A stretch of 64,000 nucleotides of DNA from Mycolicibacterium aromaticivorans JS19b1 = JCM 16368 (GTDB lineage Bacteria > Actinomycetota > Actinomycetes > Mycobacteriales > Mycobacteriaceae): positions 186,001 through 250,000 of the forward strand of contig NZ_JALN02000001.1 in NCBI RefSeq assembly GCF_000559085.1. The letters run 5' to 3'. Of this stretch, positions 12,729 through 28,632 are shown piece after piece; position 1 is the stretch's first letter; each line of letters opens with the position of its first letter. Under the pieces are notes generated by a model. The model was given only the letters and a program-made list of their open reading frames with translations. It searched no databases and was not told where the DNA came from. The position numbers and the translations under genes are program-made.

Positions 12729-14725
12729 CGGGTCGCCTGTTCAGCAGACTGATCTTTGCCGACCGGATCTTCCGGTGCAGCCGATACCGGCGAATCCACT
12801 GTCACCCCTAGCGCTTCCAGCACCGCGGCGGCGGTCGCGGTGCCGATGCCCGGCACCGTGATGATCTCCTCGACACTGGCCTGGCGCAGTCGGGCCAGCG
12901 ACCCGAAATGGCTCACCAGCGCCTTGCGCCGGATCTCCCCGAGCCCCGGCACCGAGTCCAGCGCCGACGCCGTCATCCGCTTGGAGCGCTTACTGCGGTG
13001 GTACGCGATGGCGAAGCGGTGGGCTTCGTCGCGGACCCGCTGCAGCAGGTAAAGCCCTTCACTGTTCCTCGGGAGGATGAGCGGTTCCGCTTCGGCGGGG
13101 ACCCACACCTCCTCGAGGCGCTTGGCCAGACCGATCACGGCGACATCGGCGACGCCGAGGTCGTCGAGCACCGCCTGGGCGGCGTTGACCTGGGGAGCGC
13201 CCCCGTCGACGACGTAGAGGTTGGGCGGGTAGGCGAACTTGCGCGACTTGCCCTCCGGGGCCAACTCGTCAAGGGGCTGCTGTTGTTCATGGACATGGCG
13301 CGCGAACCGCCGCCGCGTCACCTCGGCGATCGAGGCGACGTCGTCGGAGCGGCCCTCACCCGCGGCCTCCCGGATGGCGAAGTGCCGGTAGTCGGACTTG
13401 CGCGGCAGACCGTCCTCGAACACCACCATGGAGGCCACCACATCGGTGCCCTGCACATGGCTGATGTCGACGCACTCGATGCGCAGCGGCGCATCGGCCA
13501 GTCCCAGTGATTCCTGAATATTCTGCAGCGCAGCAGATCTCGCGGTGAAGTCGCCGGCCCGCTTGAGCTTGTGCTGCTGCAACGCCTCTTTGGCGTTACG
13601 GTGCACCGTCTCGGCCAGCGCCTTCTTGTCGCCGCGTCGCGGCACCCGCAGTGCCACCCGCGAACCGCGCAACCCGGACAGCCAGTCGGCCAGCTCATCG
13701 GCGTTGGGCGGCAGGCACGGCACCAGCACTTCGCGCGGCACCGGATTGGTGGATTCGTCTGCGGCACCGCCCAATTCGGCCTGGTCACCATAGAACTGGG
13801 TAAGGAACTGCTCGACCAGCCGCCCTTCGGCCGATTCGCCGGGGTCGGAGGGCTTTTCGACGACCCAGCCGCGCTGGCCACGCACCCGTCCGCCCCGGAC
13901 GTGGAAGACCTGCACGGCGGCCTCCAGATCGTCGTCGGCGAACGCGACGACGTCGGCGTCTGTACCGTCCCCGAGCACCACGGCCTGCTTCTCCAGCGCC
14001 CGCTTGAGGGCGGCGATGTCATCGCGCAACCGGGCGGCGCGCTCGAAGTTCAATTCGGCGGACGCCGCGTTCATCTCCAATTCGAGTTCGCGGGCGAAAC
14101 GGTCGGTCTTGCCGGACAGGAAGTCGCAGAAGTCCAGGACGATCTTGCGGTGTTCCTCGGCGCTGACCCTTCCGACGCACGGCGCCGAGCACTTGTCGAT
14201 GTATCCCAGCAGGCACGGACGCTCGATCTGGCTGTGCCGCTTGAATACTCCGGCCGAACAGGTGCGGGCGGGAAAGACTCGGGTGAGCAGGTCGAGGGTT
14301 TCGCGGATGGCCCAGGCATGCGAATACGGGCCGAAATAACGCACGCCCTTGCGGCGCGGACCGCGGTAGACCGACAGGCGCGGATACTCTTCGTTGAGGG
14401 TGACGGCCAGCACCGGATAGGACTTGTCGTCGCGGTAGCGGACGTTGAACCGCGGATCGAACTCCTTGATCCAGTTGTATTCCAGCTGCAGGGCTTCGAC
14501 CTCGGTGTTGACCACCGTCCACTCGACCTTGGCCGCGGTGGTCACCATCTGGCGGGTGCGTGGATGCAGGGCGGAGATGTCCTGGAAGTACGACGTCAGC
14601 CGGGGCCGCAGGCTTTTGGCCTTGCCGACATAGATCACCCGGCCATGCGGATCTCGGAATCGGTAAACACCAGGTTCCACCGGAATGGACCCGGGCGCCG
14701 GGCGGTACGTCGACGGGTCGGGCAC
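12725..14725 (-). CDS. uvrC: Excinuclease ABC subunit C
   Basis: 666-aa dual nuclease of UvrABC nucleotide excision repair. Seen: the N-terminal GIY-YIG domain ([20 protein letters not shown]), [11 protein letters not shown], the Cys-rich segment ARTCSAGVF...[15 protein letters not shown], the UVR motif region ([17 protein letters not shown]), the RNase H-like C-terminal nuclease ([26 protein letters not shown]) and tandem HhH motifs ([23 protein letters not shown]). The frame is open to 14974, but that extension lies antisense to the GNAT gene. GTG 14725 gives [13 protein letters not shown] and lies 7 nt after TAACCT; GTG 14731 is the alternative. Confidence 0.97.
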
Positions 14726-16197: not shown

Positions 16198-17469
16198 CTA
16201 CAGGGCCCCGCCCAAATCACCGGGAACAACCTGGTCGTAGTCATCGAGGCCGGTCAGATCGTGACCCATCCGGTCGCGCTTGGTCATCAGGTAGCGAATG
16301 TTCTCGGCGTTCGCCCGCACCGGCAGCGGCACCCGCTCGATGATGTGCAGCCCATAGCCGTCCAAGCCGACCCGCTTGGCCGGGTTGTTGGTCAGCAGCC
16401 GCATCGAGCGCACACCGAGGTCCACCAAGATCTGCGCGCCGATCCCGTAGTCGCGCGCGTCGGCAGGCAAGCCGAGCTCCAGGTTGGCGTCGACGGTGTC
16501 GGCGCCGGCGTCCTGCAGCTGGTAGGCCTGCAGCTTGTGCATCAGACCGATGCCCCGGCCCTCGTGGCCGCGCATGTAGAGCACGATCCCGCGACCCTCA
16601 CGCGCGACCATTGCCAGTGCGGCGTCCAGCTGGGGGCCGCAGTCGCAGCGCCGCGAACCGAACACGTCACCGGTCAGGCACTCGGAGTGGACTCGCACCA
16701 GCACGTCGTGGCCGTCATTCTCCGGGCCGCTGATGTCACCCTTGACCAGGGCGACGTGCTCCACCTCTTCGTACATGCTGGAGTAGCCGACGGCACGGAA
16801 CTCGCCATGGCGGGTGGGGATACGGGCCTCGGCGATGCGCTCGATGTGCTTTTCGTGCTTGCGCCGCCACTCGATCAGATCGGCGATGGAGATCAGGGCC
16901 AGGTCGTGCTCGTCGGCGAACACCCGCAACTCGTCGGTCTGGGCCATCGAACCGTCGTCCTTTTGGCTGACGATCTCGCAGATCGCGCCGGCCGGCTGCA
17001 GACCGGCCAACCGGGCCAGGTCGACAGCGGCTTCGGTGTGGCCGGGGCGGCGCAGCACGCCACCGTCCTTGGCGCGCAACGGAACTACGTGACCAGGCTT
17101 GGTGAAGTCCTCCGAGACACTGCCCGGGTCGGCCAACAACCGCATCGTCGTCGCCCGATCGGCGGCCGAAATGCCAGTTCCCACACCATGTTTGGCGTCG
17201 ACGGTGACGGTGTACGCGGTGCCGTGCTTGTCCTGGTTGACCGCATACATGGGCAGCAGCCCCAGCTTGTCGCAGATCTCGCCGGACAGCGGCACACACA
17301 GGTAGCCCGAGGTGTAGCGGACCATGAACGCGACCAACTCCGGCGTCGCCTTCTCGGCGGCGAAGATCAGGTCACCCTCGTTCTCGCGGTCCTCGTCATC
17401 GATGACGACGACGGCCTTGCCGGCCGCGATATCGGCGACCGCCCGTTCGACGGTGTCCAGCCTCGTCAT
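16198..17469 (-). CDS. ribBA: Bifunctional 3,4-DHBP synthase / GTP cyclohydrolase II
   Basis: 423 aa, called ribA2 in M. tuberculosis. The N-terminal half (about 1-200) makes 3,4-dihydroxy-2-butanone 4-phosphate: metal-binding [11 protein letters not shown] and [16 protein letters not shown]. The C-terminal half is GTP cyclohydrolase II: zinc cysteines in [30 protein letters not shown] and the catalytic RLLTNNPAK. Both active sites look intact, so it feeds both branches of riboflavin synthesis. A CAAGG Shine-Dalgarno sequence precedes ATG 17469. Confidence 0.98.
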
Positions 17470-17891: not shown

Positions 17892-20672
17892 TTAGAACGT
17901 CCACGACTTCGTTGCGTTGCTCAGCGTGGCCTGGACCACACCGTTGACGACGTTGTAGTAACCGTCGTAAACAGTGAGGGTGACTGTCTTTCCGGAGTAG
18001 TTGGTGGTCGCGGACTGGGCGTTTATCGAACTGGTTCCGAGGCTCTGCTGATTGCCTAAGTAGACGAAGTTGAACCCGCTGGTGATGGTGTACCCGGCAC
18101 CTCCGGAATACGCACTGCCACCGGAATTGTCCCCATCCGCGTCATAGACGGCGATAGATGTCACCGTCGGAGACAGACCGAAGAAGCTCGCCGTGGTACC
18201 CCCGGAGATCGTCGGCGCGCTGTTGACCGCATAGATCGGCACTGTCACGAGCACACCGGTGCTGCCTCCGAATCCGTCGCTGACTGTCACGGTGAACGTC
18301 TGGTTCTTGGCGCTGGCAGCCGCCCCGACCTTCGCGGCCGCGTGGCGGGTAGCCGTCGGTATGTCGGCGGTATAGGTGAAACTTCCGTCCGAGCCGAAGC
18401 TCACAGAAGCCCCGCTGGCCAACCCACTGGCGCTATAGGTGAGCGTGTCACCGTCTGCGTCGCTCGCCGTGATCTTCCCGGTGCTCGTCTGAACGGTTCC
18501 GCTCAGGGTTCCGACTGTCGGCGCCGTGGTAAGAGTCGCTGAAGGTGCGTTGTTGGCGATCGTGGGTGTGACCGCCAGATCCAGGCTGACCGTGCGGCCA
18601 TTGACGTCGGTGGCGATCACGGTGACCACGTCACCGGCCGACGTGGTGTGGCCCAGGCTCGAGTTGCGGGTGTAGGTGAACGTGCCGGTGGCCGGGTCGA
18701 ACGATGTCACGGTGCCCTTGGCCGGAGCCGCGCCCAGGCTGTAGGTGAACATTCCGGCGTCGTTGGCCGGGGCCGGCACCGAACCGGTGACGACGTTCAC
18801 CGTCGAGGTGTTGACGTTGGCCGGGGTGATCGAGGTGGTGTTGGGCACCGTGACCGTCGTGATCGTGTTGCCGCCATGGCCGTCGGACAACTGCACCTGG
18901 AAGTTCTGCGAGGTGCCTGCCGTCGACGTCGAGACGTAGGTGAACGCGCCCGTCGACTGGTCGAGGGTGACAACACCGCCGTTGCCGGAACCGTTCTTGG
19001 TATAGGCGGAGTTGCCTATGACGCTGTTGACCGACGAGTTGACAAGCGAATAGGTCAACGTGTCACCGTCGGCGTCGCTGCCTCCCACGGTGCCCCGCAC
19101 CACGCCCAGCGCATCGGCGCCGCTGTTCGAAGGGGACGCGGTCGGGGCGCTGTTCACCGTGGAGACGATCTTGATCTGGAAGGTCAGCGTGTACGGCGCG
19201 CCGTCCACCGTAGTCACCGGTATCTGTACGGTGTCGGACTGGCCGGCAGCGCCCGCGTGGAAGTACGCGGTGCCCGGAAGCGTGGCCGTATAGGTGTATC
19301 CACCGCCGTACGTGTTGATCGTCACCAGAGCGCCCCATGCCGAGGTGTAGGTATTCCCGTCCGCGGGCTGGAAACTCACCGCGTTGCCGTTCTCGTCGAC
19401 CGCGCTGAACGATCCGTTCGCGTACTCGGAGCGGGTGCTGGCGCTGCCCAGATCAATGGTGTAGGGGGTCCCGGAGTTGTACTGCGTGCCGACCGTGAAG
19501 GTCTGCAGGGCGGCCGTCTCCTGGAAGCGCTTGTATAAGCCGACCAGGACCACGTACGTCACGACTGTGAACGGGTTCACCTGGGCGGCAGTCCACGTCG
19601 GCAAAGTTTGGTTGAACGCCTCTGCCGGGCTGCTGTACACGCCACCGCCCAAGGCGACAGAAGCGGCAATCTTTGTTTCGAGACTGGTGGAGTCGGTGAG
19701 GTCGGCCCTGGTGACCGTCGCCCCGGTGGTCGTCTTGATGACATCGATCTCGATCTGGGCCGGGTCATAAGTGCCATTCAGCATGTCCGTCAATGCCGTT
19801 GCCGTCCCGGCTACGGCGGCACCCATGATCTTGTACGGCGTGATGATTCCGAAAGTGCCCGCCCCGGGGGCGATGGTGAACGGCGGCACGACCCGGTTCA
19901 GGAGGTCGCCCCACGCGTTGAGGGTGTCACTGAAGGTATAGGTGGGGATCGCCGACGTCACGAAGAGGTGCAGTACACCGATGAGATCGGGAACCCATCT
20001 AGCCGGACTGCCCGGGACCGCCGTCGCGACCAAGGAATTGAGCTGAGCGTCGGCGGCGTCGAGACTCTGATCGATCTGATAATTGGTCACCGCGACGAAG
20101 CTGTGCGGCAGCCCAGGCCAGCCGACCAGCCGGTCGAGCGCCCTCTGCACGGTGGCTACCCACGACGTGTTGTCTGGCGTCGCAGCAGCTGCGGTCGGCA
20201 CCGACGCCGCAGCGGCCGCCACCACCGAGGACGCGGCCGGAGCGGCCTTCGCCGTGGTTGCGGCCGCCTTGGCGACATTGAGCGGGCCGGCGGCCGGCGC
20301 GACCGTCGCGGAAGTTTGCAGGCTGGCCGAGGTGGCCGCGGTGGTTGCCGAGGTCGAACCGGGCACACTCGCGGCCGATGGGGAACGGACCGCCGCCGAC
20401 GATTGCTTACTTGAGGTCCGCTGACGCGCAGATCCGGCAACACCTTTGGATTTCGCGGGATTACTCGTCGAACTCGGTTTTGGTCCGGAATCCGAACCGC
20501 CGCCATCGGTGGCTGCCGACGCCACTCCTTGACCGGCGGCCACCGCCAGACCGATTCCCACGGCAGCAGCCATAATCCCGTTGCGGGCCGCGCGCTGCCG
20601 ATTGCGAGTCGCGGTTTTCCGGTGGCGAGCTTTCTGCTTGCGGTGGCGACCCACGCGTTTCTTGGAACTCAA
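17892..20672 (-). CDS. Large exported VCBS/cadherin-like repeat protein (paralogue A, 926 aa)
   Basis: Not assigned to a characterised protein. Architecture: residues 1-33 very basic (SSKKRVGRHRKQKARHRK...RAARNG), a hydrophobic export segment (about 34-54, MAAAVGIGLAVAAGQGVASA), an Ala/Ser/Thr/Pro-rich linker to about 170, and a conserved N-domain (TFSDTLNAWGDLLNRVVPPF ... VNPFTVVTYVVLVGLYKRFQE). Then come beta-sandwich modules with DADGDTLTYS and TVSDGFGGST signatures of VCBS/cadherin-like bacterial Ig repeats, and a C-terminal cap with LTVYDGYY. The DADGD loops could bind calcium. No LPXTG or C-terminal membrane helix is seen. The frame opens at 20735, but TTG 20672 is chosen: GGGAG lies 5 nt upstream and the alignment MSSKKRVGR matches both paralogues. 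Last of three tandem copies. Confidence 0.8.
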   Translation of the reverse strand: MSSKKRVGRHRKQKARHRKTATRNRQRAARNGIMAAAVGIGLAVAAGQGVASAATDGGGSDSGPKPSSTSNPAKSKGVAGSARQRTSSKQSSAAVRSPSAASVPGSTSATTAATSASLQTSATVAPAAGPLNVAKAAATTAKAAPAASSVVAAAAASVPTAAAATPDNTSWVATVQRALDRLVGWPGLPHSFVAVTNYQIDQSLDAADAQLNSLVATAVPGSPARWVPDLIGVLHLFVTSAIPTYTFSDTLNAWGDLLNRVVPPFTIAPGAGTFGIITPYKIMGAAVAGTATALTDMLNGTYDPAQIEIDVIKTTTGATVTRADLTDSTSLETKIAASVALGGGVYSSPAEAFNQTLPTWTAAQVNPFTVVTYVVLVGLYKRFQETAALQTFTVGTQYNSGTPYTIDLGSASTRSEYANGSFSAVDENGNAVSFQPADGNTYTSAWGALVTINTYGGGYTYTATLPGTAYFHAGAAGQSDTVQIPVTTVDGAPYTLTFQIKIVSTVNSAPTASPSNSGADALGVVRGTVGGSDADGDTLTYSLVNSSVNSVIGNSAYTKNGSGNGGVVTLDQSTGAFTYVSTSTAGTSQNFQVQLSDGHGGNTITTVTVPNTTSITPANVNTSTVNVVTGSVPAPANDAGMFTYSLGAAPAKGTVTSFDPATGTFTYTRNSSLGHTTSAGDVVTVIATDVNGRTVSLDLAVTPTIANNAPSATLTTAPTVGTLSGTVQTSTGKITASDADGDTLTYSASGLASGASVSFGSDGSFTYTADIPTATRHAAAKVGAAASAKNQTFTVTVSDGFGGSTGVLVTVPIYAVNSAPTISGGTTASFFGLSPTVTSIAVYDADGDNSGGSAYSGGAGYTITSGFNFVYLGNQQSLGTSSINAQSATTNYSGKTVTLTVYDGYYNVVNGVVQATLSNATKSWTF

Positions 20673-20907
20673 CGACTCTCCCGACCGCGTCGCTACGTGA
20701 CCATCTGGCAACGTATCACGCTGACGGTTGTTCAACCAAAGCTTGCGACAATCAAGCTTTATATATGTAGTTCAACAGTATGTTTGGCGAGACCACGCGG
20801 GTTCTCACCGCCCTACGGCGCCAACTTTGGGAAATACAGCAAATAAACAGCAAATTCACAACGAAGCGCACCGTGTGGCACATGCCGGGTCCCGATCCGA
20901 GCAACCG
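20673..20907. promoter_or_regulatory. AT-rich upstream region of repeat-protein gene A
   Basis: 235 bp between the stop of gene B and the start of gene A, clearly richer in A/T than its surroundings (for example tttatatatgtag at 20759-20771). On the coding strand it has a TTTGCTGTTTATTTGCTG stretch near 20850, an element TGATACGTTGCC (20708-20719 region) related to elements upstream of genes B and C, GTCACGTAGCGACGCGG, then the GGGAG SD and the TTG start. Probably holds a separate promoter for A. Confidence 0.5.
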
Positions 20908-23900
20908 TCAGCTCCACGACTTGGAGGTACTGGCCACGATCTTGTTCCCGGAACCGTCGACCGCGATCGTCCCATCGGCATTCGTGAGGTAGTACCCATC
21001 GCGGACGGTGATGGTGAGGGTTCCGGAACCGAACCCATAACTTGCACCGCCGGTATCGAGGTTGCCGGTGATGTTGCCGCCCTTGCTGTTGTCGTAGCCG
21101 GGCGTGCCGCCACGATTGGTACCGACGAGGTCGCCGTCGGCATCATCGACATTGAGCCCCCATACCACCTTGGTGCCGGACAGACCCGTTACGTAGGAGC
21201 CGGAGGCGAACGTCGGCGCGCTGTTCACCGCGAAGACCGGCACATTGACCCGGACTACGCTCGTGCCCCCGTACGCGTCGGTGACCGTGAGGTTGAACCA
21301 GTCCGTCGTGGTGGTGCCCGAGGCGCCGATCTTGGCCGCACCGTGGTAGTAAGCCGCGTTCTTGGTGATCGAGTAGGACATCGTCCCGTTCGAGTTCACG
21401 GTCACAGTGCCGCCGTTGGCCGTCGAGATCGTGCCGCCGCCGGCCAGCGCGAAGGTGGTGCCCGTGCCGTCGTACTTGTTGTTGATGGACAACGTGTCTC
21501 CATCGGAATCCGTTGCACTGAAGGTGATTCCGTTGATGGTCTGCACGTAGGTCGACGTGTTCAGCGACCCCGGCGACGAGAGATTGACAGTCCCCGTTCC
21601 CCCGTTGACCGTCACGGTGGGTGCATTGTTGCTCACCGAAGGCGCCACGCTGATCGTGGCGACGATCACCGATTTGCCGCTGGCATCGGTGGCTTTGATC
21701 GTGAACGAATCGTTCGGGGTTTGGGAGTGCCCCAGCCCTGCGGTCCGCGTGTAGGTGTAAGTACCGTCCGAATTGACGACGACGCCGCCCTTCGACGGGC
21801 CGCTACCCAGGCTGTAGGTCAGCCCGAGGCTGCTGTCCCCGGCCACGTTCAGCGAACCTGTCGTCACGCCTGCTGTCGTGTTGGTATTTGTCTGCGGCGA
21901 CGGCGTCGAGAGTCCGGACAGATTGACCGTAGCGGTCGTCACGCCTCCATGACCGTCGTCGACCTGCACCTGGAACGAATCCGAAGTGACTCCCACCTTG
22001 GGGATGTAGGTGAACGAGGTGCCGCTCATGGTGACGATGCCACCGTTTGCGGTGTAGGCCGATCCCCCGCTGACGTTGATAAGACGGTAGGTCAGACTGT
22101 CACTGTCGGCGTCAGACGCGCTCGAAATGGTGCCGCGTACGACGCCAAGGCCGCTGGTGCTCGAACTGCTCACCGATCCACTCAAAGTCGGTGCGGCATT
22201 TTGCTTTTCGATCGGGATTCCGTAGGTCACCGCGGTGGTGCCGCCGAAGCCGTCGCTGACGTTGATCGTGAACGTGTCGCCGGGGTCGCCGGCGACAGCG
22301 TGGTCGTGCCAGTAGCTGTCCGAGACGCCGAACCACGCGTATTTCTGATTCGTGTAGCTGAACGTGCCGTTCGCGTTGACAGTGATCGTGCCGCCCTGGG
22401 CGGTGCTGTAGGTGCCTGCAGCCCAGGTGAGCGTGTCACCTTCGGCGTCAGTCGCTTTGAGCGTGCCGGACGTGTCCTGCCGGTCATACGGACCGACGAT
22501 GCGTGACAGCGCCGAACTTGCCACCGTCACACCGTTACCCACCGGGGCGGTATTGGACACCGTCGGATTGACGTTGACCACCGCGACGGTCGTCGTCTTC
22601 CCGGAGCTGTCTGTGCCGAGGATCGTGAACGAATCCTGAGTGGGCTGGGTGTGACCCGCTGCTGTGCGGGTGTAGGTGAAGGTGCCGTTGGCGTTCAGCG
22701 TGACGATGCCCCGCAGCGAATTCGGCGGGGTGCCGATGCTGTAGGTCAGTAGTCCGGCGTCGGTGCCGTTGTTCAGGCTGCCGGTGACCGTGCCCGTGGT
22801 CGGGTTCGTGGTCGTCACCGGCGACGCCGAACTCACCGGCACGGTCACGGTCGTCGTATAGCTGTAACCGAAGCTGTCGGTGCTTGTCATCTGGAACGAG
22901 TCCGAGGTCGCACTCGACGACCGGTTCGGAACGTAGGTGTAGGCCCCGGTAGTTGAATTGAGCTTGATGATGCCGCCGTTGGCGGTGTAGGCCGATCCCC
23001 CGCCGGCACCGACCAGAGAATAGGTCATCGGGTTGTCCGGGTTGCTCGGTGCCGACACGGTGCCGCGGACGACGCCCATCGGTGAGGTGCTGCCGACAGT
23101 ATTGGTCAGCGATCCGACAGCCTGGTTGTAGTACACGGTGACGGTGACGGTCTTCTGGGTTTCGTTGCCGTTCGGCATGTACGGTTTGGACACGCTGATC
23201 TGACCATCACCCTGGGCGAGTACCGTCATCGTGAACGTCAGCGTCTTCGGAGACTTGTCGCTGGACAAGGGATTCCAGTCCCACACCGTCCAGTTCATCC
23301 GCCCGTTGGTCCCGTCGACCACCGTGACGGTGAACCGACTGTCGTTGGGCTCGGTGAAACCGTACGAGGTGATCGGGTCGCCGTCGGCGTCGTAGAACTG
23401 CACGTATCCCGATACGGTCGTGCCGCTGGCGTTCGGCAGATGCTGACTGGTCTGCTGCATGTCAGTCACGACGGGCTGGTGATCGGTCGCCACGTCGGCG
23501 AAGCGCCGGAAGATCGCGACCACGACGACATACATCGCCAGCGACACCGGATTCGGCGCCGGACCGAGGTCAATTGTAATGTCCAACACCGTCTTTGGCG
23601 AAAGGAATGCCGCCCTCGCCGCACCGATGACACCGTCCATGTCGTTCGCGGTCAGCCCGTTGACGACCGGGTTCGCAGCGATATCCTGCAACGCCCCGGC
23701 GAGGCTCACGGCCTCGGCGATCCAGTGGTTGACGTCGACGGTCTGCGAGGTGTTGAACAACACGATGGCACCCGCGAGGACCGCGGCCGTGACCGACGCC
23801 TGCGTGATTATCGACGGTGCGCCGTCGACCATCTTGAACGGCGGCACGAATTGGTCCATCAGGGTGGCCAGGCCGTTGAGGCCGTAGGACAGCCGGTCGA

Positions 23901-24708
23901 CCACGATCGAAGGCTTGAAGAACGCGTCCAAGAACGTGACCGGGAACTTGAGCCAGCCGTTGCTGGAAGTGAGCGGAGCCGCCATCAGCGCATCGAGTTG
24001 CGCCGCCCAGGCGTCGAGCGTGGTCTGGATGGAATAGTGCGCCGGCGTGGTGATCGGACCCGCGCCGTCCTGGACGGCCGTCAGGTCGCCGTCCATCGAG
24101 TAGGCGGCGGCCGAGGGGGCGACGGCGGACCTGGCAGTGGTGGACTTGCGCGCGGTGACGGTTGCGGGCGTTGAGGACGCGGCCGGCGGGGTCGCCTCGG
24201 CCGGCGCGGCGGGCGCGGTCGCGGTGTCTACGGTGGCAGTGGGCGGCGTGGCCGGCGTGGTCACCGTGTCGCTCGGCGATGCTGTGGTGGTGGATGATTC
24301 GGGCCGCGCGGTCGTCGTGACGGTCGCCTCGACGGCGCTGTCCGCTGACGGGGTCCTCCCCGTCGTCGACGGCCGGATAGCCACCGCGGAACCGCTGTTG
24401 GAGTCCGACGACGCCGGCTGCTTGACAGTCGAGCGGGTGCGCGCGGGTCCGGCGTTCTTGGGCCCGCGGGCCGAGGTCGAAGAGTGACCGGAATTGCTGC
24501 CGGAGTTGCTCGCCGACGAGGATCCGGAATCGGAGCCGCCGTCGGTGGACGCCGCGGCCACACCGTTCCCGACGCTTGCCGCCAGCCCCAGGCCGACCGC
24601 GGCCGCCAGGATTCCGTTGCGCGCCGCGCGCTTGCTGCTTCCGGCGGCTCGTTTCCGATGACGGCCTGCCAGCTTCCGGTGGCGAGCCGCATGCTTCTTG
24701 GAACTCAA
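20908..24708 (-). CDS. Large exported VCBS/cadherin-like repeat protein (paralogue B, 1266 aa)
   Basis: The longest and most divergent of the three paralogues. Start TTG 24708 (MSSKKHAARHRK) with GGGGAG upstream; the frame extends 69 codons further, but that part covers the promoter region. Basic N-terminus, then hydrophobic ILAAAVGLGLAASVGNGVAA, then a Ser/Thr/Ala/Pro linker to about 215. The conserved N-domain is recognisable but diverged (DQFVPPFKMVDGAPS, LAMYVVVVAIFRRFADV). At least four to five beta modules follow, with YDADGDPIT, TDAEGDTLTW, SDADSDSLTY, TDSDGDTLS and DDADGDLVG loops and NANGTFTYT/NANGTFSYT strands. The C-terminal cap has ITVRDGYY. Probably cell-surface or secreted; adhesion or matrix function is inference only. 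Confidence 0.8.
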   Translation of the reverse strand: MSSKKHAARHRKLAGRHRKRAAGSSKRAARNGILAAAVGLGLAASVGNGVAAASTDGGSDSGSSSASNSGSNSGHSSTSARGPKNAGPARTRSTVKQPASSDSNSGSAVAIRPSTTGRTPSADSAVEATVTTTARPESSTTTASPSDTVTTPATPPTATVDTATAPAAPAEATPPAASSTPATVTARKSTTARSAVAPSAAAYSMDGDLTAVQDGAGPITTPAHYSIQTTLDAWAAQLDALMAAPLTSSNGWLKFPVTFLDAFFKPSIVVDRLSYGLNGLATLMDQFVPPFKMVDGAPSIITQASVTAAVLAGAIVLFNTSQTVDVNHWIAEAVSLAGALQDIAANPVVNGLTANDMDGVIGAARAAFLSPKTVLDITIDLGPAPNPVSLAMYVVVVAIFRRFADVATDHQPVVTDMQQTSQHLPNASGTTVSGYVQFYDADGDPITSYGFTEPNDSRFTVTVVDGTNGRMNWTVWDWNPLSSDKSPKTLTFTMTVLAQGDGQISVSKPYMPNGNETQKTVTVTVYYNQAVGSLTNTVGSTSPMGVVRGTVSAPSNPDNPMTYSLVGAGGGSAYTANGGIIKLNSTTGAYTYVPNRSSSATSDSFQMTSTDSFGYSYTTTVTVPVSSASPVTTTNPTTGTVTGSLNNGTDAGLLTYSIGTPPNSLRGIVTLNANGTFTYTRTAAGHTQPTQDSFTILGTDSSGKTTTVAVVNVNPTVSNTAPVGNGVTVASSALSRIVGPYDRQDTSGTLKATDAEGDTLTWAAGTYSTAQGGTITVNANGTFSYTNQKYAWFGVSDSYWHDHAVAGDPGDTFTINVSDGFGGTTAVTYGIPIEKQNAAPTLSGSVSSSSTSGLGVVRGTISSASDADSDSLTYRLINVSGGSAYTANGGIVTMSGTSFTYIPKVGVTSDSFQVQVDDGHGGVTTATVNLSGLSTPSPQTNTNTTAGVTTGSLNVAGDSSLGLTYSLGSGPSKGGVVVNSDGTYTYTRTAGLGHSQTPNDSFTIKATDASGKSVIVATISVAPSVSNNAPTVTVNGGTGTVNLSSPGSLNTSTYVQTINGITFSATDSDGDTLSINNKYDGTGTTFALAGGGTISTANGGTVTVNSNGTMSYSITKNAAYYHGAAKIGASGTTTTDWFNLTVTDAYGGTSVVRVNVPVFAVNSAPTFASGSYVTGLSGTKVVWGLNVDDADGDLVGTNRGGTPGYDNSKGGNITGNLDTGGASYGFGSGTLTITVRDGYYLTNADGTIAVDGSGNKIVASTSKSWS

Positions 24709-24969
24709 CCGATCTCCCCACGCGGGTCCTACGTGACGGGGCTCGCACATTGGCGGGTGGGAGACGTACGCCACTCTGACTGATCCGCAACGTAACATGG
24801 CGCACAGGTATTTGCCAAAGTTTGTCTCAGTCAAATTTATCTGGAACGCCTTCAACTGGTGATTTAGGCGAAATTTTGTCCGGTTGTATCGCCGTGTCGC
24901 GCCCGATGTCCGCACGGTAAATAAATTTCAGCAAATTTGCACACACGCAGGTGCTGATTTGGTATGAGG
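24709..24969. promoter_or_regulatory. AT-rich upstream region of repeat-protein gene B
   Basis: 261 bp between genes C and B. AT-rich in its middle (caaatttatc, gaaattttgt, taaataaattt). On the coding strand: AATTTGCTGAAATTTATTT, a TGTTACGTTGCGGA element (24784-24798 on the plus strand as TCCGCAACGTAACAT), then a segment CGTCTCCC...GAGCCCCGTCACG that matches the upstream region of gene C almost base for base, and GGGGAG before the TTG start. Confidence 0.55.
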
Positions 24970-27780
24970 CTAAGCGTTCTGCTGGGCGGTGAACGTCACC
25001 GCATAACTCGCCGGGGTGCTGCTCACCACGCCGCTGGTGACCACGTAGTAGCCGTCGTACACGGTCAGCACGATCGTGTCGCCGGTGTGGGTGCCGCTGG
25101 TGCTGAGGACGTTCAAGACGGAGTCGTAGCTCGCGCTGCCGTGCGCAGGCTGCTGCGTGATGGTGTACGTCATCGAGTCGCTGTCGCCGTCGCTGCCGTT
25201 CACCGATGTCCAGTACGTGTAGGTGTTGAGGAAGTTGCTTCCGGCCCAGCGGATGCCACTGGAGAGGGACGGCGCAGTGTTGGCGGCATAAATCGGTACT
25301 ACCGCCGTGTATGTCGTTGTGCCACCGAACGGGTCGCTGACCGTCGCGGTGAAACTGTCGCCGACCGCGTTGCCGGTTGCCCCGATCTTGGCCGCGGCGT
25401 GGTAGTACGAATACCCCTTGTCGATGCTGTAACTGAACGTTCCGTTGGCGTTGATGACCACCGTGCCGCCATTGCCGGTCGCATATGTGCCGGCGGTGTA
25501 GGTGAGAGGGTCGCCCTCGGCATCGGTCGCGTGCAGTGTGCCGGTGGTCGTCTGATTCAGATTGCCGATGCCGAGGATGCGGTTGTCTTGCAGGTTCGAC
25601 GAGCCGATTGTCGTCGCACCGGGCGTCGGGGCCGTGTTGACCACCGAAGGCGTGACGGCCATCGACAGGGTGACGGTGCGTCCGTTGGCGTCGGTGGCGA
25701 TCACGCTGACCACATCGCTGTTCGCCGTCGTACGGCCCACGTTGGAGGTGTAGGTGAACGCGCCGGTGGCCGGATCGAAGGACGTCACCGTCCCCTTCGT
25801 CGGGCTGGCACCAAGGGCGTAGCTGGTGAAGATGCCGGTATCGCCGCTCGGGACGGGCACCGAACCCGTCACGACGTACGGCGTCGAGGTATTGAGGTTG
25901 CCCGGAGTGATCGTCGTGGTGTTGGCCACCGTGACCGTCGAGACGGTCGTGCCACCGTGCCCATCGGTCATCTGCACCTGGAAGCTCTGCGCCGCACCGG
26001 CATTCGCCGACGAGACATAGGTGAAGGCGCCGGTGGTCGAGTTCAGGGTGACAATGCCGCCGTTCCCGGAGCCATTCTTGGTGTAGCCGGAATTGTTGCT
26101 CAACGCGTTCACCGACGAGCCGACCAGTGAGTACGTCAACGTGTCGCCGTCAGAGTCACTGCCGCCGACGCTGCCACGCACCACGCCGAGTCCGTCGGCG
26201 GCACCTGTCGTCGGAGACGACGTCGGCGGGCTGTTCGATCCGTCGATGATCTGAATCTTGAAGCTCAGCGTGTATTTGACGCCGTCCGCGGAGGTCACCG
26301 GGATGCTCACCGAGTCGTACCTGTCAGCCGGGTTGTCCGAGGTCGCCCGGTGGAAGAACGCCGCGCCGGGAAGCGTGTTCGTGTAGGTGAATCCACCGTC
26401 GCTGGTGTTGATGGTGACCAGCCCGCCACCTGCTGAGGTGAACGTACCGAGCAGCGACGTCCCGAAGTCCACCGATCTACCATCAGGATCCACCGCATGG
26501 AACGTGCCGGCCGCGTATTCGGAGCGCGAGCTGTCACCGCCCAAACTCAGTGTGTAGAGCCAACTGTCGTATGTCGTGCTCGTCGTGAACGGTGTCAGGA
26601 CCGCCATTTCCTGGAACCGCTTGTACATGGCGACCAACGCGACGTAAGCCACGACCGTGAACGGATTGACCTGGGCCGCAGTCCACGTCGGCAGCGTGAC
26701 GTTCCATGCCCGGGTCGGGTCGTAGTACGCGCCGCCGTCGCTGAGCCCGAGGGTCAGAATCGCTGCCGCCTGCGCCGCGGCGATCTTGGTCTCGAGACTG
26801 GTGGAATTGGTGAGGTCAGCCCTGGTGACGGTGGCGCCGGTGGTTGCCTTGACGACGTCGATCTCCCACTGGGCCGGGTCGTAGACACCAGTGAGCATGT
26901 CCGTCAACACCGTCGCCGTCCCGACCACGGCAGCACCCACGATCTTGTACTGCGTGATGACGCCGAAGGTGCCCGCCGCCGGGGAGATGGTGAACGGCGG
27001 CACGATCCGATTGAGGAAGTCACCCCACGCGTTGAGCGTGTCGGAGAACGTATAGCTGGGGATCGCCGGCTTGACGAAAAGGCCCAGGATGCTGGACAGG
27101 TCGGGAATCCATCGGGCCGGGCTGCCCGCGACCGCGCCGGCGATCAACGCATCGAGCTGATTGTCGAGAGCGTCCAGATTCTGGTCGGTTACGTAGTTGG
27201 TGACCGTGACGAAATTGTGCGGCAAGCCGGGCCACCCCGCGAGGCGATTCACCGCCCTGGTCAACGCACCCATGAAGTACCAGGCACCAGTTCCCGGGGC
27301 GGCGGTGTCAGCGGCGGCAACCGGCTTGGCGGCGGCCGTTGTGGACGTCCCCGCCGGCAACGGCTCGGAGACCGCCTCGACGGCTTGCGGAGTCTGCACC
27401 GAGGCGGTGGCCGCACTGGTCCGGGTCGCCGGGCTGGTCGGGTTGATCGTGCGAATGGGGGTCGAAATCACGGCACGCCGCGGAGAGGCTGACGTTTGTG
27501 TGCCGGCGGGGCGGTTGCGGGCGGACCCGGCGGTTCCGGTTGCGCGGATCGGGTTCGAGGTAGATCCGGCACCGGCGGCAGAGCTCGCTTTGGGCGCCGA
27601 ATCCGGCGAACCCCCCTCCGTCGCAGCCGACGCCACTGCCTGACCGGTCGAAACGGCCAGCCCGACGCCTACCGCTGCCGCGAGGATTCCGTTGCGAGCC
27701 GCGCGCTGTCTGCGACGCGTCTGCTTCCGATGCCCGGCCGCCCGCTTCCGATGGCGACCGACGCGCTTATGAGAACTCAC
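24970..27780 (-). CDS. Large exported VCBS/cadherin-like repeat protein (paralogue C, 936 aa)
   Basis: First of the three tandem copies and the closest relative of A. GTG start 27780 with a good SD (GGAGGG) 3 nt upstream. Basic N-terminus (SSHKRVGRHRKRAAGHRKQ), export segment GILAAAVGVGLAVSTGQAVA, low-complexity linker to about 165, then a conserved N-domain nearly identical to A (RLAGWPGLPHNFVTVTNYV; TFSDTLNAWGDFLNRIVPPF; YVALVAMYKRFQE). The beta modules have SDSDGDTLTYS, TDAEGDPLTYTAG and NANGTFSYS, and the C-terminal cap has LTVYDGYY. No sortase or lipoprotein anchor, so secretion or non-covalent wall attachment is likeliest. Function unknown. Confidence 0.8.
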   Translation of the reverse strand: MSSHKRVGRHRKRAAGHRKQTRRRQRAARNGILAAAVGVGLAVSTGQAVASAATEGGSPDSAPKASSAAGAGSTSNPIRATGTAGSARNRPAGTQTSASPRRAVISTPIRTINPTSPATRTSAATASVQTPQAVEAVSEPLPAGTSTTAAAKPVAAADTAAPGTGAWYFMGALTRAVNRLAGWPGLPHNFVTVTNYVTDQNLDALDNQLDALIAGAVAGSPARWIPDLSSILGLFVKPAIPSYTFSDTLNAWGDFLNRIVPPFTISPAAGTFGVITQYKIVGAAVVGTATVLTDMLTGVYDPAQWEIDVVKATTGATVTRADLTNSTSLETKIAAAQAAAILTLGLSDGGAYYDPTRAWNVTLPTWTAAQVNPFTVVAYVALVAMYKRFQEMAVLTPFTTSTTYDSWLYTLSLGGDSSRSEYAAGTFHAVDPDGRSVDFGTSLLGTFTSAGGGLVTINTSDGGFTYTNTLPGAAFFHRATSDNPADRYDSVSIPVTSADGVKYTLSFKIQIIDGSNSPPTSSPTTGAADGLGVVRGSVGGSDSDGDTLTYSLVGSSVNALSNNSGYTKNGSGNGGIVTLNSTTGAFTYVSSANAGAAQSFQVQMTDGHGGTTVSTVTVANTTTITPGNLNTSTPYVVTGSVPVPSGDTGIFTSYALGASPTKGTVTSFDPATGAFTYTSNVGRTTANSDVVSVIATDANGRTVTLSMAVTPSVVNTAPTPGATTIGSSNLQDNRILGIGNLNQTTTGTLHATDAEGDPLTYTAGTYATGNGGTVVINANGTFSYSIDKGYSYYHAAAKIGATGNAVGDSFTATVSDPFGGTTTYTAVVPIYAANTAPSLSSGIRWAGSNFLNTYTYWTSVNGSDGDSDSMTYTITQQPAHGSASYDSVLNVLSTSGTHTGDTIVLTVYDGYYVVTSGVVSSTPASYAVTFTAQQNA

Positions 27781-28032
27781 CGACCCTCCGACTCATCGAG
27801 GCGTGCCGACACTTGCGTGACGCGGCTCACACACATGGCTCGGGAGAGACGCAGCGTTACTTGCTTTCCGCAACCTAACATCGCCCGGCATTTCCGCCAA
27901 GGACAATTTCATCGGCCCAATTAGATGGGCTCTGATCAGCGAATTCGATAGATCAGGGACGGTTTTTTCTCAGTTGTGTCTAATTGCGCAGCAAAGGTCC
28001 GTACTGATCAATTGATTAGTCACACCACGGCG
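27781..28032. promoter_or_regulatory. Upstream region of repeat-protein gene C, between it and ribC
   Basis: 252 bp, AT-rich from about 27890 to 28025. On the coding strand it carries CCTTTGCTG near the ribC end, TGTTAGGTTGCGGA (27867-27881 on the plus strand as TCCGCAACCTAACAT), CGTCTCTCCCGAGCC and GTGAGCCGCGTCACG. These are the same ordered elements as upstream of gene B, so the promoter was duplicated with the gene. No terminator hairpin for ribC is obvious. Confidence 0.5.
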
Positions 28033-28632
28033 TCAACGCGCGCGGTCGGCGAGCAAACGTTCCACGTATTTCGCGATGACATCGACTTCGAGGTTCACCG
28101 GCGTGTCGACCGCCGCGCGACCGAGTGTGGTGAGCGCCAGCGTGGTGGGGATCAGGGATACCTCGAACCAGTCGTCACCCAACCCGGACACCGTCAGGGA
28201 GATGCCGTCGACGGTGATCGAGCCCTTTTCCACCACGTACCTCGACAACTCCGTGGGCAGTGCGATCCGCACGATCTCCCAGTGCTCGGACGGCGCGCGG
28301 GAAACGACGCGGCCCGTCCCGTCGACGTGGCCCTGGACGATATGGCCGCCGAGCCGACTGTTGACCGCAGCGGCGCGTTCCAGGTTCACCGCACTTCCGA
28401 CGTCGACCGCGGCCAGGCTGGACCGATTGAGCGTCTCGGCCATCACATCGGCACTGAACTGCCCGCCGGGCAGGACCTCGACGACCGTCAGGCAGACGCC
28501 GTTGACGGCGATCGAATCGCCGTGCCGGGCGTCGGCGGTCACGACCGGACCGCGGATCACGAACCGGGCCGAGTCGGCCAGCTCATCCTTGCCGACGATC
28601 TCACCCAATTCCTCGACGATTCCGGTGAACAC
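28033..28632 (-). CDS. ribC: Riboflavin synthase, alpha chain
   Basis: Dismutates two molecules of dimethyl-ribityllumazine to riboflavin (the enzyme is RibE in other naming). 199 aa, two tandem lumazine-binding barrels: MFTGIVEELG, NGVCLTVVEV and FSADVMAETLNRSSL in the first; LGGHIVQGHVDGTG, DGISLTVSG and SLIPTTLALTTLG in the second. GTG 28632 lies 6 nt after a TAGATT hexamer, so it is likely leaderless. In M. tuberculosis ribC lies close to ribBA; here the three repeat-protein genes separate them. Confidence 0.98.
   Translation of the reverse strand: MFTGIVEELGEIVGKDELADSARFVIRGPVVTADARHGDSIAVNGVCLTVVEVLPGGQFSADVMAETLNRSSLAAVDVGSAVNLERAAAVNSRLGGHIVQGHVDGTGRVVSRAPSEHWEIVRIALPTELSRYVVEKGSITVDGISLTVSGLGDDWFEVSLIPTTLALTTLGRAAVDTPVNLEVDVIAKYVERLLADRAR

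Follow-up and report, generated by a model that had tools for sequence, protein, structure and literature searches.

RTX adhesins such as AhLap, MhLap, MpIBP and SiiE are described as carrying calcium in their linkers and ligand-binding domains at their distal ends (PMC7493085; PMC12077191), and BapP of Pseudoalteromonas tunicata is a Ca2+-dependent adhesin with Calx-beta/cadherin-like and Big_9 repeats (PMC12153261). In the rhs genes of Enterobacteriaceae, base and tip evolve apart, and an old tip displaced by a new one may persist downstream as a fragment without a head (PMC2935791). Both the calcium rod that ends in a recognition domain and the displacement of a C-terminus are already known. 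Here we describe three paralogous genes, all on the minus strand, that fill the ribC-ribBA interval (17892-27780) of a 64,000-nt window of Mycolicibacterium aromaticivorans JS19b1 = JCM 16368 (contig NZ_JALN02000001.1, 186,001-250,000; coordinates are window positions), and whose C-terminal module is, judging from sequence comparison, an exchangeable tip swapped between related genes and species. An earlier note on this DNA had reported the three paralogues between ribC and ribBA; they are present, with products of 925 (given there as 926), 1266 and 936 amino acids (aa). Searches of the open-access literature and of family databases revealed no case in which displacement and a rod are combined on a mycobacterial protein of Sec type whose helical base is unlisted and whose tips form a pool of one family, and those of the literature yielded no report of a mycobacterial surface protein with a swappable tip.

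Architecture of the three proteins

The products of the three open reading frames (ORFs) share one layout, in which a basic leader and a low-complexity linker are followed by a helical N-domain and then by Big_9/cadherin-like modules in the cyclic order (a-b-c)n-d. The leader, 27-28 residues with a charge of +11 to +13, runs into a hydrophobic stretch and an A-x-A-like site, which we take to be features of a Sec-type signal, and from this leader the proteins are probably exported. All three lack cysteine, and the part after leader and linker is acidic. ORF1 and ORF3 are 59-60% identical, and ORF2 represents a diverged class, with N-domains of its kind 25-31% identical to those of ORF1 and ORF3; what had been taken for one conserved N-domain is in fact several classes of one family. 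For the N-domain, none of 44 members gave a credible Pfam match (the lowest E, 0.002, was that of a single member against an unrelated family of eukaryotes), nor was a solved relative found in the PDB; the domain represents a helical family absent from Pfam and so far confined to mycobacteria.

The VCBS/cadherin-like modules read earlier from the letters are borne out by family searches and by fold, which support an adhesin-like repeat protein. Pfam finds Big_9 above its curated cut-off in all three proteins and Cadherin_4 above its own in ORF2 and ORF3 only, while the NCBIfam model VCBS_repeat exceeds its cut-off in all three. An AlphaFold model of ORF3 without leader and linker had a mean predicted local distance difference test score (pLDDT) of 87 and a predicted template modelling score (pTM) of 0.54, values at which single domains can be trusted and their relative placement cannot. 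The best PDB match of the rod in Foldseek was 6xi1, the AhLap tetra-tandemer, an RTX-adhesin extender, and cadherins match too. The rods thus resemble RTX adhesins in their tandem beta-sandwich extender modules; they differ in that the leader looks Sec-like, the host is a mycobacterium and recognition would fall to the last Ig-like module itself. Pfam found no family of the C-terminal RTX repeats that serve type I secretion in the three proteins, for which at E ≤10 it gives Big_9, Cadherin_4/5 and two chance-level families. The likeness to BapP, as far as its available description goes, extends to a Sec signal, a non-repeat N-terminal domain and an array of cadherin-like and Big_9 modules, but the BapP N-domain is a five-bladed propeller whereas that of the rods is helical, and tip exchange does not figure in that part of the description (PMC12153261).

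Profiles built on the three proteins were used to read the module grammar of 123 module-bearing proteins, in which 573 of 583 neighbouring pairs obey the order a-b-c, then a or d. Class A proteins have the N-domain, a first c-like module, (a-b-c)n and d, and class B proteins (ORF2) the diverged N-domain, an extra module, (a-b-c)n and d, with n from 1 to 4 and an a-b-c unit of 302-348 residues. The middle unit is a mosaic in nine of ten three-unit proteins, its a module being like that of the last unit and its c module like that of the first, with b also like the last unit in eight of the nine. A single unequal crossover in register would be expected to yield such a mosaic, and the nine proteins may share one such event. 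The exception is P0123, a protein of class C, and two four-unit proteins are less clear.

Exchange and displacement of the C-terminal tip

The earlier note's common C-terminal cap is common in the sense of being homologous; it is also among the least alike parts of the three proteins (31-39% identical) and is exchanged. In ten orthologue comparisons by module, the N-domain was 83-94% identical throughout. Tip d reached 83-98% identity in six of them and fell to 31-52% in the other four, which pair ORF3 with L036 and L038 and ORF2 with L029 and L038. C-terminal pieces were recovered from 176 of 186 N-domain proteins, and the 134 unique tips fell by single linkage into 24 types at 65% identity and 12 at 50%. 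These types cut across the N-domain classes, the largest occurring on four of the five, and the type of ORF3 is also found on the class-C proteins L083-2171 and P0124.

Identity counts, in which protein pairs are not mutually independent, point the same way. Among 466 pairs with N-domains at least 80% identical, tips were below 50% identical in 274, at 50-70% in 58 and above 70% in 134. Conversely, 101 of the 4019 pairs with N-domains below 50% had tips at least 70% and up to 98% identical, and the rank correlation between N-domain and tip identity was 0.08. The same counts for every module serve as a control: of the 466 pairs, those below 50% identity rise stepwise from 60 for a through 127 for b and 205 for c to 274 for d, and the rank correlations with the N-domain fall from 0.46 and 0.43 to 0.19 and 0.08, indicating that decoupling is strongest at the tip and that breakpoints also lie further in. 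Alike modules on unlike N-domains numbered 331, 251, 118 and 101 of the 4019 for a, b, c and d, and since the count is higher for the inner modules it does not by itself single out the tip. In a tip tree, which rests on 128 columns and is poorly resolved, a single grouping of class B is rejected (p 0.0002).

Mean identity drops towards the C-terminus, as would be expected if these were structural envelope proteins with a loosely constrained C-terminus in which tip differences were plain fast divergence. We disfavour this explanation as very improbable, given that tip identities are bimodal in the counts above and that tips 93-98% identical occur on N-domains just 22-27% identical. Proteins P0038 and P0039 also count against it: windows of 25 residues are mostly 92-100% identical from the N-domain to the motif VPIYAxN (one 76%, one 52%) and 36-64% identical beyond it, with the tips 40% identical overall.

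A displaced tip, which likewise speaks against simple divergence, is present in M. rhodesiae JS60 (L027), where an ORF3-class gene ending at 13225 carries the tip type of ORF3. About 120 bp past its end a headless piece of c module begins, in an open frame and with another tip attached. The stretch from 13348 to 14180, downstream sequence included, matches M. vinylchloridicum (L030) 12830-13651 at 90.8% identity, and there the tip that is headless in M. rhodesiae is joined to the ORF3-class gene. The simplest history would be that an incoming tip displaced the old one. Of 70 tip matches at E ≤1e-8 in 41 genomes, 68 fall within frames of 737 aa or more. Of the other two, one is in a frame of 212 codons in G288, which spacing and sequence identify with the genome of L027, and one is in the broken genes of G009. 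In addition, L087 has a short remnant of a tip in intergenic sequence.

Decoupling of core and tip together with one displaced tip, as in rhs (PMC2935791), is what a polymorphic-toxin or contact-inhibition system, with a constant stalk and a variable C-terminal effector, would also produce. We find such a system scarcely credible here, since the tips are one Ig-like family and most types have the same D-x-DGD start and DGYY end (weighted per-column frequencies 79-96% and 83-96%), which makes one common fold probable. Twenty-one tips gave no match to any enzyme family, and there is no clear immunity gene after ORF2 (238 bp) or ORF1 (422 bp), the gap after ORF3 not being listed; the same-strand frames in these two gaps are short, reaching 98 and 113 aa, and each of these longest frames overlaps the end of an ORF. 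No Rhs core-repeat family of Pfam or NCBIfam was found in the three proteins.

Tip replacement on a conserved base is also the trace expected if the tip were a contact point for phage or predators and exchange an escape from recognition by recombination. This we regard as improbable. The ratio of non-synonymous to synonymous substitution rates (dN/dS) within a tip type was 0.03-0.18 in six comparisons, giving no sign of escape by point mutation and, through purifying selection, suggesting that types are kept and swapped rather than freely mutated; there was no PHROG match, and one scan of viral contigs revealed no relative.

Two observations on individual ends may be added. Tips at L027 16770-17072 and L081 5057-5359 have the odd ending DRDGSGNRYYNVDAYGR in place of the usual DGYY, and 54 of the 134 tips have at least two cysteines, unlike the cysteine-free proteins of the window. 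Two kinds of leader occur on ORF3-class proteins, MAAxSPRK-like...GRHRKPS and VSSxKR...GRHRK, dividing L027, L028, L030, L033 and L034 from the window, L026, L029, L036 and L038; given the two leaders, the N-terminal end may perhaps be exchanged as well.

A possible role in contact and recognition

The swapping of the cap, which the earlier note missed, is what argues most for contact or recognition, and it suggests that the tip may decide what the cell surface recognises. A gradient from conserved base to exchanged end is expected of a rod fixed at the cell whose far end touches something variable. We consider it fairly probable that the genes encode exported, rod-shaped surface proteins with exchangeable recognition tips, of which export, anchoring, calcium and ligand binding are the conjectural parts; the sequences themselves show the architecture, the cyclic module order, the exchange of tips, the one displaced tip and the chromosomal homes. 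The strongly basic Sec-type signal would begin export, the low-complexity linker would give reach across the envelope, and the helical N-domain, with its hydrophobic helices, would keep the protein there. The row of Ig/cadherin-like modules would form a rod, presumably stiffened by calcium at D-x-D-G-D junctions, as solved relatives (PMC7493085) and BapP (PMC12153261) suggest, our own evidence being a count of motifs; the last module d would be the tip facing the outside world. Recombination within the repeated modules would replace the C-terminal end with a new type from a shared mycobacterial pool while the base is conserved, a diversification by Rhs-like C-terminal displacement, and in-register unequal crossing-over would alter rod length by whole a-b-c units. 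The job would likely be adhesion or partner recognition, with specificity set by the tip.

Several observations weigh against this proposal. The N-domain is all-helical in the model, but the model of the N-domain alone is weak (pLDDT 67) and its hydropathy peaks are modest (highest 19-residue mean per N-domain 1.28-2.07, median 1.55, 44 rows), which makes the N-domain no more than a candidate membrane anchor. There are fewer D-x-D-[GSN]-D motifs than modules, with counts of 3, 4 and 2 for the three proteins. Swapping also reaches the inner modules, as in ORF1 and its counterpart at L032, where the c module is 51% and the tip 87% identical. Within one genome, tips are no more unlike than expected by chance (1 shared pair out of 25, against a permuted mean of 2.13, with a fraction of 0.357 as low), and the N-domain classes still group together on the tip tree (32 changes, where 200 shuffles gave a mean of 70.5 and none as low), so that exchange is real but not free. 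As in rhs, base and tip evolve apart, though for this reason not fully independently; unlike rhs, the rod tips are a single Ig-like family and dissociated tips are rare, amounting to one headless and one in a broken gene among the 70 matches.

With the cell anchor only putative, an alternative is a matrix protein with affinity for polysaccharide made by the cell itself, as with rhizobial Rap or Saccharophagus Cab proteins, the tip type following the local glycan rather than a partner cell. Polysaccharide-binding cadherin-like modules are on record, according to the titles of the RapA2 and Cab papers cited in PMC12153261, and the same genome has other leader-bearing Big_9 proteins fused to GH16 and GH5 domains. 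We hold this explanation to be unlikely, since it leaves unexplained both the constant N-domain, found in mycobacteria only apart from one weak match, and an exchange that is strongest at the tip. The genome's other Big_9 proteins differ from the rods in having no N-domain, its three copies all being in the cassette, and most have one or few Big_9 modules. In a set of nine loci of this genome (L017-L025), the encoded proteins combine a hydrophobic leader with a linker like that of the rods; Big_9 occurs at seven of them, and the partner domains include GH16, GH5 plus Calx-beta, a beta-propeller and others. The two without Big_9 at E 1e-3 have an S15-type peptidase (L024) and a sub-threshold C39-like match (L025).

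Exchangeable recognition tips, if confirmed, would explain in concrete and testable terms what determines contact specificity in some environmental mycobacteria, and would add a case of an Ig-like rod evolving through displacement of its C-terminus. More tentatively, and as a conjecture we would not bet on, the genes might constitute a kin- or partner-recognition system of the M. rhodesiae/sphagni group, in which a helical base and a calcium rod bear some two dozen Ig-like tip types and identity is diversified by C-terminal displacement at ribC-ribBA.

Distribution, chromosomal homes and features of the locus

The rod-gene family is chromosomal, placed clade-wise and not found in 355 of 396 mycobacterial genomes. 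The class-A N-domain occurs in the other 41 genomes of the genus, which argues against the possibility, raised in the earlier note, that the same genes have a housekeeping role in all mycobacteria; across the order it was matched in 7 of 298 genomes, six of the same genus and one with a weak, probably chance, match. M. rhodesiae, M. sphagni and M. vinylchloridicum are among the named relatives. Positions were determined in 70 genomes, comprising the full set of 41 positives and 29 of the 355 negatives. Among the positives, 24 have all their N-domain copies between ribC and ribBA, in an interval of 3.8-15.8 kb with one to four copies. In 16 others the N-domains are at other sites, and the rib interval is 84-305 bp (14 genomes) or about 1750 bp (two); the remaining positive, G301, is interrupted by a contig end.

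Among the negatives the interval is 55-2094 bp in 28 of 29, which upholds the description of the cassette as inserted in the rib region, as does the grouping of its carriers by ribBA. The ribBA gene is at least 96% identical to that of the window in the 24 interval-carrying genomes, except G009 (pieces of 93-96%), 98% in G301, and at most 93% in the other 45 genomes checked. The exceptional negative, G034, has a rib interval of 7.8 kb with different proteins: three other frames (L071 1992-9009), two with Big_9 modules, the largest (1534 aa) having a tip of the rod-gene family near its end. When 44 N-domains were placed in a tree, a branch with support 91 set the ten from other sites apart from the rest. 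At three such sites checked by Pfam (L073, L074 and L082) a histidyl-tRNA synthetase gene lies near the N-domain genes, and at two of these a periplasmic binding protein gene as well.

In G009 (L084 1147-8682) rod genes and ribBA are broken into pieces, and this genome also has two distant ribBA-like genes, 35-42% identical. At L085 (2479-3915), L086 (2569-3978) and L087 (2496-3947), in three genomes, ribBA is separated from the rod genes by a convergent gene for a divalent cation transporter of the MgtE type, and there is none in the window's ribC-ribBA interval; a link between this transporter and the putative calcium-binding rods is possible.

Table 1. Window positions of the rod genes, their parts and their neighbours; domain limits are in residues.
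Feature	Position	Strand	Remarks
ribC	28033-28632	-	upstream flank of cassette; Pfam Lum_binding 7e-50
ORF3 promoter-like block	27872-27900	-	TTGGCG, 17 bp, TAGGTT
ORF3	24970-27780	-	GTG start, 936 aa; leader 1-50, linker 51-165, N-domain ~166-394, first module 395-513, a-b-c 516-833, tip d 834-936
ORF3 N-domain	26599-27285	-	all-helical; without Pfam family or PDB match
ORF3 tip d	24973-25281	-	type also on ORF3-class proteins of L026, L027, L029, L033
ORF2 promoter-like block	24789-24818	-	TTGGCA, 18 bp, TACGTT; read by eye, ORF2 being outside the 15-region alignment
ORF2	20908-24708	-	TTG start, 1266 aa; leader 1-50, linker 51-203, class-B N-domain ~204-416, extra module ~417-527, a-b-c 528-836, a-b-c 837-1161, tip d 1162-1266
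ORF2 class-B N-domain	23461-24099	-	29% identical to ORF3 N-domain
ORF2 tip d	20911-21225	-	type also on L031, L033, P0114
ORF1 promoter-like block	20710-20739	-	TTGGTT, 18 bp, TACGTT; from alignment and reading by eye
ORF1	17892-20669	-	TTG start, 925 aa; leader 1-50, linker 51-165, N-domain ~166-384, first module 385-504, a-b-c 506-815, tip d 816-925
ORF1 N-domain	19518-20174	-	72% identical to ORF3 N-domain
ORF1 tip d	17895-18224	-	type also on ORF1-class proteins of L029, L032, L034 and on class-B P0122
ribBA (presumed)	16198-17469	-	downstream flank of cassette; name taken from the translation, without a family search
ribH			flank identified by Pfam DMRL_synthase

The start codons in Table 1 were picked from the common LSSK/VSSH beginning and a preceding GGAG-like sequence, and the list of open reading frames gives longer frames for ORF1 and ORF2. 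A scan with the sigma-70 consensus missed the promoter-like block of ORF3. Each gene has its own such block, of the form TTGG(C/T)N, 17-18 bp, TA(C/G)GTT, with the second hexamer ending about 40-92 bp 5' of the start codon. In an alignment of 15 upstream regions from the window and related loci, the part TGTTA(C/G)GTTGCGG is kept, and the first hexamer less so.
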